From Streptomyces sp. SS1-1 (GTDB taxonomy: Bacteria > Actinomycetota > Actinomycetes > Streptomycetales > Streptomycetaceae): a stretch of DNA of 64,000 nucleotides. The stretch spans positions 1,550,001 to 1,614,000 of the forward strand of contig NZ_WBXN01000004.1 in the NCBI RefSeq assembly GCF_008973465.1, given 5' to 3'. The position numbers and the translations under genes are program-made. How positions within the stretch are numbered: position 1 is the stretch's first letter; each line of letters begins with the position of its first letter. Below the pieces are notes generated by a model that made no database searches, had not been told where the DNA came from, and worked only from the letters and a program-made list of their open reading frames with translations. Positions 33,795 to 42,764 of the stretch are shown here, one piece after another.

Positions 33795-33950
33795 AGGTCA
33801 CAGGCAAGTTGACGGCCGTCGCGACCCGTGGTGGACTTCCCAGGCCATGTACGGCGGCAGAAGAGGAAGCCGGTGCGAATCCGGCGCGGTCCCGCCACTG
33901 TCACCGGGGTAGTGACCCCCGGGAGCCAGGAACTCTCGCCGCCGGTCTCG
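33795..33950 (+). ncRNA. Cobalamin (AdoCbl) riboswitch of the cob operon
   Basis: The aptamer core GAAGCCGGTGCGAATCCGGC (33866-33885) is followed by the B12 box region GCGGTCCCGCCACTG (33886-33900) and the conserved GAGCCAGGAACTC (33923-33935). An upstream arm with CACAGGCAAGT starts near 33798. This is the standard arrangement of AdoCbl riboswitches. It lies about 110 bases before cobD, in the leader of the whole cob operon, and should reduce expression when the coenzyme is abundant. No U-run follows, so control is likely at translation (inference). The 5' boundary is estimated. Confidence 0.92.
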
Positions 33951-33991
33951 TCGAACCAGGGCGTGGACACCCTGAGTGAGGACATCACGCG

Positions 33992-34057
33992 ATGCTCGCC
34001 TGCCGATCGTCACGCAGTAGCAGTACCGGACCCCTGTCCGACGCCACCACCGGCTGA
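33992..34057 (+). CDS. Possible 21-residue leader ORF between riboswitch and cobD
   Basis: ATG at 33992 opens a 21-codon frame (MLACRSSRSSSTGPLSDATT-Gly) with a TGA five bases before the cobD ATG. It has a GAGGA element (33978-33982) nine bases upstream, whereas cobD itself has no visible ribosome binding site. This suggests that the riboswitch may control this small frame and that cobD is reached by translational coupling. The peptide resembles no leader I know. It may equally be chance. Confidence 0.4.
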   Translation: MLACRSSRSSSTGPLSDATTG

Positions 34058-34062
34058 ACCCC

Positions 34063-35022
34063 ATGCGTGCCGAACGCGTCTTCGCGTACGGCGCCGCCGC
34101 CGGACTCCTCGGTGACCTGCTGCTCGGCGATCCACGCCGTGGGCATCCGGTCGCCGCGTTCGGACGTGCCGCGGGCGCCGTGGAACGGGTGTTGTGGCGC
34201 GACCACCGCGCCTGGGGTGTGCTCCACACCGCCGTGTGCGCCGGTGGCGCCGTGGCGGCCGCCGCGCTCGGCGCACGCGCCGTGCGCCCCTCCCCCGCCG
34301 CCTCCGTCGCCCTGACCGGCGCCGTCACCTGGGCCGTCGTCGGCGGCACCTCGCTGGCCCGGGAGGCCCGGGCGATCGGACGTGCCCTGGAGTCCGGGGA
34401 CGTGGAGGCCGCGCGGGCGCGGCTGCCGCATCTGTGCGGCCGGGACCCGCAGGCGCTGGACGCCGACGGGATCGCGCGGGCCGTCGTGGAGTCCGTCGCG
34501 GAGAACACCTCGGACGCCGTGGTCGGCGCCCTCGTATGGGGGGCCGTCGCCGGGGTGCCGGGCCTCGCGGGGTTCCGGGCCGTCAACACGCTCGACGCGA
34601 TGGTCGGGCACCGCTCCCCCAAGTACCGCCGCTACGGCTGGGCTTCGGCCCGTCTCGACGACGTCGCCGGCTGGCCGGGGGCCCGGCTGACCGCCGTACT
34701 GGCCGCCGTCGCCGGGGGCGACCCCCAGGGGGCCGTACGGGCGTGGCGGGCGGACGCGCACCGGCATCCCAGCCCCAACGCGGGCCCCGTGGAGGCGTCG
34801 TTCGCGGGCGCGCTCGGGGTGCGGCTCGGCGGGACGCTGTCGTACGGCGGGCGGGTGGAGCACCGGCCCGTGCTCAACGGGGCTGCCGGACGGGCCGTCG
34901 AGGTCGCCGACATCGAGCGGGCCGTGCGGCTGTCGCAGCGGGTCGGCGTGCTCGCCCTCGGGGTGTGCGCCGGGGCGCGGCTCCTGCTCGGGCGGCGCGC
35001 GGCGCGGGGACGTGCCGCGTGA
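34063..35022 (+). CDS. cobD: Adenosylcobinamide-phosphate synthase CobD/CbiB
   Basis: 319 residues, membrane-associated. It attaches aminopropanol (or its phosphate) to adenosylcobyric acid to form cobinamide. Family marks are the N-terminal FAYGAAAGLLGDLLLGDPRRGHPVAAFGR, then DGIARAVVESVAENTSDAVVGALVWGAVAGVPGLAGFRAVNTLDAMVGHRSPKYRRYGWASARLDDVAGW, and PNAGPVEASFAGALGVRLGG near the end. It is the first gene of the cob operon after the riboswitch. Its TGA overlaps the GTG of cobQ. The five-base distance to the possible leader ORF is unusual. Confidence 0.94.
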   Translation: MRAERVFAYGAAAGLLGDLLLGDPRRGHPVAAFGRAAGAVERVLWRDHRAWGVLHTAVCAGGAVAAAALGARAVRPSPAASVALTGAVTWAVVGGTSLAREARAIGRALESGDVEAARARLPHLCGRDPQALDADGIARAVVESVAENTSDAVVGALVWGAVAGVPGLAGFRAVNTLDAMVGHRSPKYRRYGWASARLDDVAGWPGARLTAVLAAVAGGDPQGAVRAWRADAHRHPSPNAGPVEASFAGALGVRLGGTLSYGGRVEHRPVLNGAAGRAVEVADIERAVRLSQRVGVLALGVCAGARLLLGRRAARGRAA

Positions 35023-36523
35023 AGGGCGGGCTGCTCGTCGCCGGTACGACCTCCGACGCGGGCAAGAGCGTCGTCACCGCCGGGATCTGCCGCTGGCTGG
35101 TCCGGCAGGGCGTGAAGGTCGCGCCGTTCAAGGCGCAGAACATGTCGCTGAACTCGTTCGTCACCCGCGAGGGCGCGGAGATCGGGCGGGCGCAGGCCAT
35201 GCAGGCGCAGGCGTGCCGGATCGAGCCGACCGCGCACATGAACCCCGTCCTGCTGAAGCCGGGCGGGGACCGCAGCAGCCAGGTGGTGCTGCTGGGCCGG
35301 CCGGTCGGCGAGCTGAGCGCGCGCGGCTACCACGGCGGACGGCAGGAGCGGTTGCTCGGCACCGTGCTGGACTCCCTCGCCGAACTACGGGCCTCGTACG
35401 ACGCGGTGATCTGCGAGGGCGCCGGTTCGCCCGCCGAGATCAACCTGCGGCGCACGGACATCGTGAACATGGGGATCGCGCGCGGTGCCCGGCTGCCGGT
35501 GCTGGTCGTGGGCGACATCGACCGGGGCGGAGTCTTCGCCTCGTTCTTCGGGACGGTGGCGCTGCTGGCGCGCGAGGACCAGGAGCTGGTCGCCGGGTTC
35601 CTCGTGAACAAGTTCCGCGGCGACGTCTCGCTCCTCGAACCCGGCCTGGACATGCTGCACGGCCTCACCGGGCGGCGGACGTACGGCGTGCTGCCGTTCC
35701 GGCACGGTCTCGGCATCGACGAGGAGGACGGCCTGCGGGTGTCGCTGCGCGGGGCGGTGCGCGAGTCCGAGGTGGCCGCCCCGGCCGGCGAGGACGTGCT
35801 GCGCGTCGCCGTGTGCGCGGTGCCGCTGATGTCCAACTTCACGGACGTCGACGCGCTCGCCGCCGAACCGGGCGTCGTCGTGCGGTTCGTGGACCGGCCG
35901 GAGGAGCTGGCCGACGCCGATCTGGTGGTGGTGCCCGGCACCCGCGGCACCGTGAAGGCGCTGCGCTGGCTGCGCGAGCGGGGGCTGGCACAGGCCCTGG
36001 TGCGGCGGGCCGCCGAGGGCCGTCCGGTCCTCGGGATCTGCGGCGGCTTCCAGGTCCTCGGCGAGCACATCGAGGACGACGTCGAGAGCCGCGCCGGTCA
36101 TGTCGACGGCCTCGGCCTGCTGCCCGTGCGGGTGCGGTTCGCCCGCGAGAAGACCCTGACCCGGCCGTGCGGTGAGGCGCTCGGCGAGCGGGTCGAGGGC
36201 TACGAGATCCATCACGGGGTCGCCGAGGTCCTGGCGGGTGAACCCTTCCTGGACGGCTGCCGGGTCGGCCAGACCTGGGGCACCCACTGGCACGGCTCGC
36301 TGGAGTCGGACGCCTTCCGGCGCGCCTTCCTGCGGGAGGTGGCGGCCGCCGCGGGCCGCCGCTTCGTACCGGCGCCCGGCACCTCGTTCGCCGCGCTGCG
36401 GGAGGAGCAACTCGACCGGCTCGGCGACCTCATCGAACAGCACGCGGACACGGACGCGCTGTGGCGGCTCATCGAGTCGGGCGCGCCGCGAGGACTGCCC
36501 TTCATCCCCCCGGGAGCGCCCGC

Positions 36524-36527
<4 letters not shown>
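35019..36527 (+). CDS. cobQ: Cobyric acid synthase CobQ
   Basis: 502 residues, cytoplasmic. It amidates four side chains of adenosylcobyrinic acid a,c-diamide using glutamine and ATP. The N-terminal half is a P-loop domain (LVAGTTSDAGKSVVTAGICRWL, FKAQNMSLNSFVT, VVGDIDRGGVFASFFGT). The C-terminal half is a class I glutaminase-like domain with GICGGFQVLG (Cys at about 341) and GYEIHHG (His). The GTG at 35019 overlaps the cobD stop (GTGA) and its stop overlaps cobN (ATGA). Confidence 0.96.
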
Positions 36528-40173
<3,646 letters not shown>

Positions 40174-40177
<4 letters not shown>

Positions 40178-42165
40178 CGACCCCCTTTCCTTTCACGGCC
40201 GTCGTCGGCCAGGACGACCTGCGGCTCGCGCTGCTGCTGAACGCCGTGTCCCCGGCGGTCGGCGGGGTGCTGGTGCGCGGCGAGAAGGGCACGGCCAAGT
40301 CGACGGCCGTCCGGGCGCTGTCGGCGCTGCTGCCCGCGGTGCCGGTGGTCGCCGGGTGCCGGTTCTCGTGCGATCCGGCCGCCCCCGACCCGGGCTGCCC
40401 GGACGGGCCGCACGAGGACACCGCCGGCGTGTCCCGGCCGGCCCGCATGGTGGAGCTGCCGGTCGGCGCCTCCGAGGACCGGCTGGTCGGCGCCCTGGAC
40501 ATCGAGCGGGCGCTCGCCGAGGGCGTCAAGGCGTTCGAGCCGGGCCTGCTCGCCGACGCGCACCGCGGCATCCTCTACGTCGACGAGGTGAACCTCCTCC
40601 ACGACCACCTGGTCGACCTGCTGCTGGACGCGGCGGCGATGGGCGCGTCGTACGTGGAGCGCGAGGGCGTCTCCGTGCGGCACGCCTCGAAGTTCCTGCT
40701 CGTCGGCACGATGAACCCCGAAGAGGGCGAGCTGCGGCCGCAGTTGCTGGACCGGTTCGGGCTGACCGTCGAGGTCGCGGCGTCCCGGGAGCCGGACCGG
40801 CGGGTCGAGGTCGTCCGGCGGCGCCTCGCGTACGACGACGATCCGGCCGGGTTCGCGGCCCGCTGGGCGGACGAGGAGTCGGCGGTCCGGCAACGGATCG
40901 TCGCGGCGCGGGAGTTGCTGCCGTCGGTGCGGCTCGGCGACGGCGCGCTGCGGCAGATCGCGGCGACCTGTGCCGCGTTCGAGGTGGACGGGATGCGCGC
41001 CGACATCGTGATGGCCCGTACGGCCACCGCGCTGGCCGCGTGGGCCGGGCGCACCGACGTGCTCGCCGAGGACGTCCGGCAGGCGGCGCTGCTCGCGCTG
41101 CCGCACCGCAGGCGCCGCAACCCCTTCGACGCGCCCGGCCTGGACGAGGACAAGCTGGACGAGACGCTGGAGGAGTTCGGCGGCCCGGACGACGACCCCG
41201 ACCCGGACCCCGGCCCGGACGGGCCCGGCGGGGGCGGACAGCCGGACCCCGGTGACGCGCCCCAGGGCGACGGGGACACCGCGGCCCGCCCCGAGGCCGG
41301 CGAGGACGGGCAGCCGCGGCCCTCGGGGGCCGGCGAGCAGTCCCCCGCACGGGCCTCCGAGCCCTTCCGCACCAAGGTGCTGAGCGTGCCCGGCATCGGT
41401 GAGGGGGCCGCCGGACGGCGGTCCCGGGCACGGACCGAGCACGGGCGGACGACCGGGGCCCGCCGCCCCCGGGGCACGCTCACCAAGCTGCACCTCGCGG
41501 CGACCGTGCGGGCGGCGGCCCCGCACCAGCGGGCGCGCGGACGGTCCGGGCCGGGCCTGATCGTGCGCAGGGACGATCTGCGCCAGGCCACCCGCGAGGG
41601 CCGCGAGGGGAACCTCGTGCTGTTCGTCGTCGACGCGTCCGGGTCGATGGCGGCACGGCAGCGGATGGGTGCCGTGAAGGGCGCCGTGCTGTCGCTGCTG
41701 CTGGACGCCTACCAGCGGCGGGACAAGGTGGGGCTCGTGACGTTCCGGGGCTCGGCCGCCGAGGTCGCCCTGCCGCCGACCTCGTCGGTGGACGCCGCCG
41801 CGGCCCGGCTGGAGACGCTGCCGACCGGCGGGCGCACCCCGCTCGCGGCGGGGCTGCTGCGGGCCCACGAGGTGCTGCGGGTGGAACGGCTGCGTGATCC
41901 CGCGCGCCGCCCTCTGGTGGTGCTGGTGACGGACGGACGGGCCACCGGCGGTCCGGAACCGGTCGCGCTGGCCGGGCGCGCGGCACGGCTGTTCGCGGCC
42001 GACGGGGTCGCCTCGGTCGTCGTGGACTGCGAGTCGGGGCCGGTGCGGCTCGGGCTCGCCGGGCGCCTCGCGGCCGAACTGGGCGGTACCGCCGTGACGT
42101 TGGACGAGCTGCGCGCGGACAGCATCGCCGGACTGGTGAAGGACGTGCAGAGGAGGGCCGCGTAG
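40174..42165 (+). CDS. Fused AAA+/VWA chelatase subunit (ChlI-ChlD type), likely CobST replacement
   Basis: 663 residues. The N-terminal AAA+ domain has Walker A GEKGTAKST (about residues 36-44) and ILYVDEVNLLHDHLVDLLLDAAAMG as Walker B. A Pro/Asp/Gly-rich linker runs from about 339 to 420. A C-terminal von Willebrand A domain follows, with MIDAS LFVVDASGSMAARQ (about 481) and PTGGRTPLAAGLL. This is the I-D fused subunit of magnesium-chelatase style. Placed directly after cobN with GTGA coupling, it most likely powers CobN in place of CobS and CobT (inference). Confidence 0.92.
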
Positions 42166-42764
42166 TGCCGCAGGGACAGCCGAGTGTGGTGCCGGACGAC
42201 GGGCTGACGACACGTCAGCGGCGCAACCGGCCGCTGGTGATCGTGCACACGGGCGTCGGCAAGGGCAAGTCGACCGCCGCCTTCGGGCTGGCGCTGCGCG
42301 CCTGGAACCAGGGATGGCCCATCGGGGTGTTCCAGTTCGTGAAGTCGGCCAAGTGGAAGGTCGGCGAGGAGAACGCGCTGCGGGTGCTGGGTGCCTCGGG
42401 CCAGGGCGGGACCGTCGACTGGCACAAGATGGGCGAGGGCTGGTCGTGGGTGCAGCGCGACGCGCAGCTCGACAACGAGGAGAAGGCCCGCGAGGGCTGG
42501 GAGCAGGTCAAGCGGGACCTCGCCGCCGAGACGTACAGGCTGTACGTGCTGGACGAGTTCGCCTATCCGCTGCACTGGGGGTGGGTCGACACCGACGAGG
42601 TCGTGGAGGTGCTGCGGGCCCGGCCCGGCACCCAGCACGTCGTGATCACCGGGCGGAACGCGCCGGAGAAGCTGGTCGCGTACGCCGACCTGGTGACCGA
42701 CATGTCCAAGGTGAAGCATCCGATGGACGCCGGCCAGAAGGGCCAGAGGGGCATCGAGTGGTGA
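42165..42764 (+). CDS. cobO: Cob(I)yrinic acid a,c-diamide adenosyltransferase CobO
   Basis: 199 residues. It transfers the adenosyl group of ATP to the corrinoid cobalt. The P-loop is HTGVGKGKSTAAFGLALRAW. Further conserved parts are GVFQFVKSAKWKVGEENAL, YVLDEFAYPLHWGWVD and HVVITGRNAPEKLVAYADLVTDMSKVKHP, with the GQKGQRGIEW C-terminus. The GTG shares one base with the stop of the previous gene (TAGTG). Its stop overlaps cobB. Confidence 0.95.
   Translation: MPQGQPSVVPDDGLTTRQRRNRPLVIVHTGVGKGKSTAAFGLALRAWNQGWPIGVFQFVKSAKWKVGEENALRVLGASGQGGTVDWHKMGEGWSWVQRDAQLDNEEKAREGWEQVKRDLAAETYRLYVLDEFAYPLHWGWVDTDEVVEVLRARPGTQHVVITGRNAPEKLVAYADLVTDMSKVKHPMDAGQKGQRGIEW

Follow-up and report, generated by a model that had tools for sequence, protein, structure and literature searches.

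A small upstream frame as a probable translational relay between a cobalamin riboswitch and the cobD operon of Streptomycetaceae

The closest described counterpart of the leader analysed here is the B12 riboswitch of the ppe2-cobQ-cobU operon of Mycobacterium tuberculosis, for which a relay through a short upstream open reading frame (uORF), uPPE2, is backed by reporter and FLAG experiments (Kipkorir et al. 2024, PMC11260477); a subsequent review calls the uPPE2-PPE2 pair a translational relay (PMC12713380). The Mbox of M. tuberculosis pe20 also governs a uORF, rv1805A, first (D'Halluin et al. 2026, PMC12810186), and a review according to which short or overlapping junctions pass ribosomes on mentions proposed short uORFs whose sole task is ribosome delivery (PMC12548453). 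In Streptomyces, the accessible part of a reannotation of S. lividans TK24 gives a transcribed (Cobalamin)-cobD-cobQ-cobN leader, that is, the same riboswitch and operon as studied here, and lists eight leader peptides with no mention there of a uORF or relay (PMC8079986). No description of a Streptomyces cobD relay was found in the open-access literature.

The cobD leader described in this study lies in a window of 64 kb, meaning the whole stretch of DNA analysed, from Streptomyces sp. SS1-1, and very probably works as a translational relay gated by the riboswitch: B12 would block the Shine-Dalgarno sequence (SD) of a uORF and ribosomes terminating on this uORF would reinitiate at cobD. It has several features in common with the ppe2 leader: a B12 riboswitch, a short uORF that is preceded by an SD, a first gene that is not, a downstream gene reached (presumably so for cobD) by termination-reinitiation, an operon with cob genes, a truncated P6 extension and GGAA in J3/4. 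The ppe2 leader differs by its AUGA overlap, the PPE gene in first place, a partly conserved uORF and experimental proof, whereas the cobD leader mostly has a gap of 3-6 nt, is followed by the biosynthetic gene cobD, is conserved across Streptomycetaceae and is known by comparison alone. With the pe20 Mbox it shares a translational platform and a small uORF as the first regulated frame; however, the Mbox senses Mg2+ and its highly conserved uORF peptide is thought to be functional, while the cobD uORF peptide does not appear to be selected. Compared with ordinary stop/start coupling in operons (PMC12548453), the first frame of the cobD leader is controlled by a riboswitch and seems to encode nothing that is selected. 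The first-pass annotation of this DNA had called the arrangement an unusual output stage, and unusual it is, but not unprecedented, given that the ppe2 switch works likewise (PMC11260477). The cobD relay would thus be of the same kind as uPPE2, with support that is evolutionary rather than experimental and, on the evolutionary side, stronger than that of the precedent.

The cobalamin riboswitch, located upstream of the B12-related gene cobD, is the sole match to an Rfam RNA family in the window (Table 1). It scores 47.8 bits, above the gathering score of 31.5 (E 7e-9), and is thereby identified as a cobalamin riboswitch, for which cobalamin binding is predicted; in the RF00174 alignment, part of the model's internal extension is absent. 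The P6 extension is very short in some species of the family, including that of the window, and reaches ~80 nt in others, with the P13-SD block and the relay remaining constant. The loop of the P13-like hairpin (GCGTGGA) is complementary to TCCCGC of L5, one bulged base excepted, and can thus pair with the aptamer as expected of an L5-L13 kissing loop, a feature anticipated in B12 riboswitches (PMC11260477 and general knowledge). The block comprising hairpin and SD, CAGGGCG[CT]GG(AC)ACCCTGAGTGAGGA, or a form of it with a shortened loop, is exact in 220 of the 224 family leaders; it occurs at one site in the window and at one exact site genome-wide. When P13 and L5-L13 were inspected for covariation, their sequences were found to hardly vary among the 224 leaders. 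ViennaRNA folding of the single window sequence produced no clear two-state picture, and a search of the leader for an intrinsic terminator on the + strand found none. Three further B12 riboswitches are present in the same genome (C4; L001, 5958762-5958940; L003, 4788887-4789011; L004, 2108813-2108897); a quick look revealed no evident short relay ORF at any of them and, at L001 and L003, a long frame beginning at an SD-bearing start close by.

Table 1. Features of the cobD leader and the operon behind it (positions refer to the window).
Feature	Position	Strand	Basis or remark
Cobalamin (B12) riboswitch aptamer, short P6 extension	33812..33957	+	Rfam RF00174
L5 segment GGTCCCGC	33888-33895	+	inside aptamer
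P13-like hairpin CAGGG-CGTGGACA-CCCTG	33957..33974	+	sequence
SD of the uORF (GAGGA), 9 nt upstream of its ATG	33978..33982	+	near-invariant in relatives
uORF (putative relay ORF), 21 codons + TGA, MLACRSSRSSSTGPLSDATTG	33992..34057	+	conserved frame, start, stop
Spacer from uORF stop to cobD start, 5 nt (ACCCC)	34058..34062	+	mostly 3-6 nt in relatives
cobD (cbiB), adenosylcobinamide-phosphate synthase, without own SD	34063..35022	+	PF03186, NF002276, TIGR00380
cobQ, overlaps cobD by GTGA	35019..36527	+	
cobN, overlaps cobQ by ATGA	36524..40177	+	
Putative cobaltochelatase subunit (ChlI/ChlD-like, TIGR02442), overlaps cobN by GTGA	40174..42165	+	
cobO/cobA corrinoid adenosyltransferase, TAGTG junction	42165..42764	+	

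The uORF starts with an ATG at 33992 and ends with a TGA at 34055-34057, and the product of the gene behind it is CobD/CbiB (Pfam PF03186, 5e-89; NCBIfam NF002276). All positions of the layout that had been reported in the first-pass annotation, a cobalamin riboswitch followed by a 21-codon ORF with its stop five bases before cobD, were confirmed. The same annotation had noticed a GAGGA element before the small frame and none before cobD; in agreement, the anti-SD duplex energy in the window is -7.7 kcal/mol for the uORF vs -3.8 kcal/mol for cobD, and the anti-SD complement is matched over at most 4 nt before the uORF vs 3 nt before cobD. With the window alone, ~6.5% of dinucleotide shuffles had a stop codon no more than 8 nt upstream of the cobD start or overlapping it by 4 nt, and the position of the stop in this one sequence is by itself weak, suggestive evidence for a relay. 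The cobD leaders of 110 Streptomyces genomes were therefore compared.

In this comparison, the cobD start was placed by aligning the N-terminus of the window's CobD, ignoring the uORF. An in-frame uORF of 17-33 codons, ending with TGA 3-6 nt before cobD, is present in 106 of the 110 leaders, and its ATG stands behind the conserved GAGTGAGGAC. The gap between stop and cobD is 4 nt in 70 of these leaders, 5 nt in 20, 3 nt in 15 and 6 nt in one. As to the four exceptions, one uORF runs 11 nt into cobD, and the other three leaders lack a uORF because cobD itself begins at that ATG. As a rule, the short uORF is preceded by an SD and the main gene is not: mean SD duplex energies are -7.6 kcal/mol for the uORF vs -4.6 for cobD, and the uORF has the stronger one in 106/106 leaders. 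Independent replication with 79 further distinct leaders gave a gap of 2-6 nt in 72. Extended to other genera of the family, and thus to 224 distinct leaders from Streptomycetaceae, the tally comprises 213 relays, whose uORF stop overlaps the main start or lies a few nucleotides from it, ten direct leaders and one outlier with a 13-nt gap; relays are defined here by a uORF stop at -13 to +6 nt from the cobD start, taken as the in-frame ATG or GTG nearest that stop, which makes this tally less independent than that of the 110 genomes. The stop is TGA in 213/213 relays, and a stop in such a position is expected by chance in ~5% per leader. The junction is AUGA in three genomes of the family (3/213 relays) and UGAUG in two, both of which are textbook reinitiation overlaps; the mechanism does not require the uPPE2-type AUGA overlap, and the window, with its 5-nt gap, does not have it. 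Start, SD, stop position and frame are kept in 106/110 and 213/224 leaders, so the outcome that the first-pass annotation had named as speaking against its idea, a start, stop or frame not conserved in close relatives, was not observed.

What selection maintains in the uORF can be read from the way it varies. Its length takes 12 states, corresponding to at least 11 changes and to ~30 on a tree from which the uORF sequence was left out, and all of these are multiples of 3; all residues modulo 3 occur in the total leader length, in the distance from SD to ATG and in the gap between stop and cobD. If each of 11 changes were one-third likely to stay in frame, simple arithmetic gives a probability of ~6e-6. 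Interior substitutions in 31 close pairs are spread over the codon positions as 66/70/66, and this equal substitution argues that selection holds the frame, the start and the stop and not the peptide. The synonymous bias that the first-pass annotation had suggested looking for is absent, with 27% of single changes in the same pairs being synonymous vs 31% expected. GC content by codon position is 0.57/0.76/0.755, with GC3 not raised, a pattern that differs from that of typical Streptomyces genes, and an NCBIfam search with the uORF peptide returned no match. Judged by these comparisons, start, frame and stop are under selection and the amino acids are not; it is the act of translating the uORF, rather than its peptide, that is conserved.

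Some stretches of the uORF are also conserved as nucleotides. This applies to GGCTGCC just after the ATG (GCCTGCC in the window, 33995-34006), where changes in codons 3 and 4 fall at non-synonymous positions only, and to the last codons (GGCTGA). In one genus (L297, L298, L300, L301: ATGCAGGCTGCC), the same GGCTGCC letters stand in another reading frame. Conservation of both motifs may reflect an additional RNA-level role outside the relay model. Three candidate structures noticed by eye were rejected: a start-to-stop stem in the uORF (GCCG/CGGC), seen in some species, for which RNAalifold gave no stable conserved fold, and two pairings, one between GGCGY and the nucleotides preceding the ATG of the uORF and one between CTGCCG and the P3 strand, neither of which displayed covariation between clades.

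The ten direct leaders of the family have no uORF, and cobD itself starts at the riboswitch SD, which is what a model of gating and coupling predicts. In two of them (L131, L135), cobD (MRADRVFAYG) begins directly behind the SD, and three others (L098, L107, L109) encode a direct cobD with a short extension. In L130 (MPGRSS...) and L133 (MPGCGT...), the N-terminus of CobD is preceded in frame by uORF-like first codons, and both are probably natural uORF-cobD fusions. Comparison of the leaders thus marks the SD-ATG of the riboswitch as a start that evolution can give straight to cobD.

Outside Streptomycetaceae, four of ~40 cobD leaders, taken from further families of actinomycetes, have the riboswitch. 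One (L173) is a clear relay with 21 codons and a 5-nt gap, another (L181), with TTG starts, may be a relay, L151 is direct, and L145 has a riboswitch and was assigned to neither type. On the minus strand, L173 reads B12 riboswitch, GGGAGGAC, the 21-codon uORF MRTTRPDSGPTPPGLSLHVRT, TGA, 5 nt and the GTG of cobD. A rough script applied to 30 high-scoring actinomycete B12 riboswitch loci detected no recurring relay behind them, and most of their downstream genes have an SD-bearing start of their own; the relay is therefore a property of the cobD locus and not of B12 riboswitches generally. We regard as very doubtful a more far-reaching scenario, in which several actinomycete families would share the relay as the ancestral and usual way for B12 riboswitches to act on cob operons, and in which the frame-independent GGCTGCC would contact the aptamer or platform, so that uORF translation feeds back on riboswitch folding.

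In the proposed relay, the platform would leave the GAGGA open when B12 is low, allowing translation of the short uORF. On reaching its UGA, which either overlaps the start of cobD or precedes it by 3-6 nt, ribosomes would terminate and then reinitiate at the SD-less cobD. The four junctions that connect cobD, cobQ, cobN, the chelatase gene and cobO (35019-42165) are all stop/start overlaps, so that every gene is positioned to receive ribosomes from its predecessor, with the uORF as their entry; the overlaps would hand ribosomes on through to cobO, and the entire operon may form one coupled translation chain. Ligand binding would stabilize the P13 element beside the SD, and the L5-L13 kissing loop together with this hairpin, directly 5' of the SD, would hinder initiation at the uORF. 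With the SD blocked, no ribosomes would be delivered to cobD, and cobD and the genes behind it would be off. The peptide would be disposable, with start, frame and stop alone being of importance. The earlier proposal that the riboswitch gates the leader ORF and passes the effect to cobD by coupling gains support from the 106/110 and 213/224 leaders, the SD comparison (106/106) and the ten direct variants; the B12-dependent block of the SD is the part that we infer. Similarly, we infer that the uORF is actually translated and that ribosomes terminate and reinitiate rather than act by unfolding.

Coupling by unfolding, which the field treats as an alternative to reinitiation (PMC12548453), would have ribosomes on the gated uORF only melt structure at the cobD start and fresh 30S subunits initiate there. 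While part of the region just before this start is paired in the window fold, folding of the uORF alignment gave no strong conserved structure, cobD has no SD for the binding of fresh 30S subunits, and the stop-start distance of 3-6 nt, or the AUGA or UGAUG overlap, in nearly all 213 relays is tighter than unfolding needs, making this reading distinctly unlikely. A polarity sensor is unlikely as well. Here, B12 would block uORF translation, allowing Rho to load on the C-rich leader and to terminate before cobD, and translation would protect the RNA. Rho-dependent termination is known to accompany translational riboswitches of M. tuberculosis (PMC12810186; metE in PMC11260477), the + strand of the leader is devoid of an intrinsic terminator, and the C-over-G skew of the uORF interior is 0.33 in the window, with relatives averaging the 87th percentile of window background; this skew is modest, however, and polarity alone neither requires a stop 3-6 nt before cobD nor accounts for initiation at a cobD that lacks an SD. 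Both readings share the gated uORF, and either mechanism could act together with reinitiation.

Two explanations remain. It is most improbable that the uORF is a peptide-specific attenuator, sensing for example cysteine through a conserved Cys codon, or encodes a functional small protein: M-x-G-C-R begins most Streptomyces uORFs, and small leader peptides are common in Streptomyces according to the accessible part of the S. lividans report (PMC8079986), but other genera of Streptomycetaceae have lost the Cys (MPGTPP..., MPGRRR...), codons 3-4 vary by non-synonymous changes only, substitutions are blind to codon position, the peptide matches no NCBIfam entry, and the leader has no + strand terminator and does not display the characteristics of leader-peptide attenuators. 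A coincidental frame, with cobD using its own upstream or SD-independent start under direct control of the riboswitch, is hardly credible, although SD-less initiation exists and the stop position has a ~6.5% chance in the window alone, given that 213/224 leaders are conserved and indels occur in frame only.

The relay reading, which we favour, turns a single M. tuberculosis oddity into an apparent family-wide design, operating in the B12 pathway of industrially important bacteria. The 224 leaders constitute a natural experiment, in which one and the same riboswitch occurs with a relay, an overlap or a direct start. Streptomyces cob constructs or annotations that start at cobD without the uORF would miss the true regulated start. 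Finally, conservation of a frame without conservation of its peptide provides a usable signature for finding further relays.
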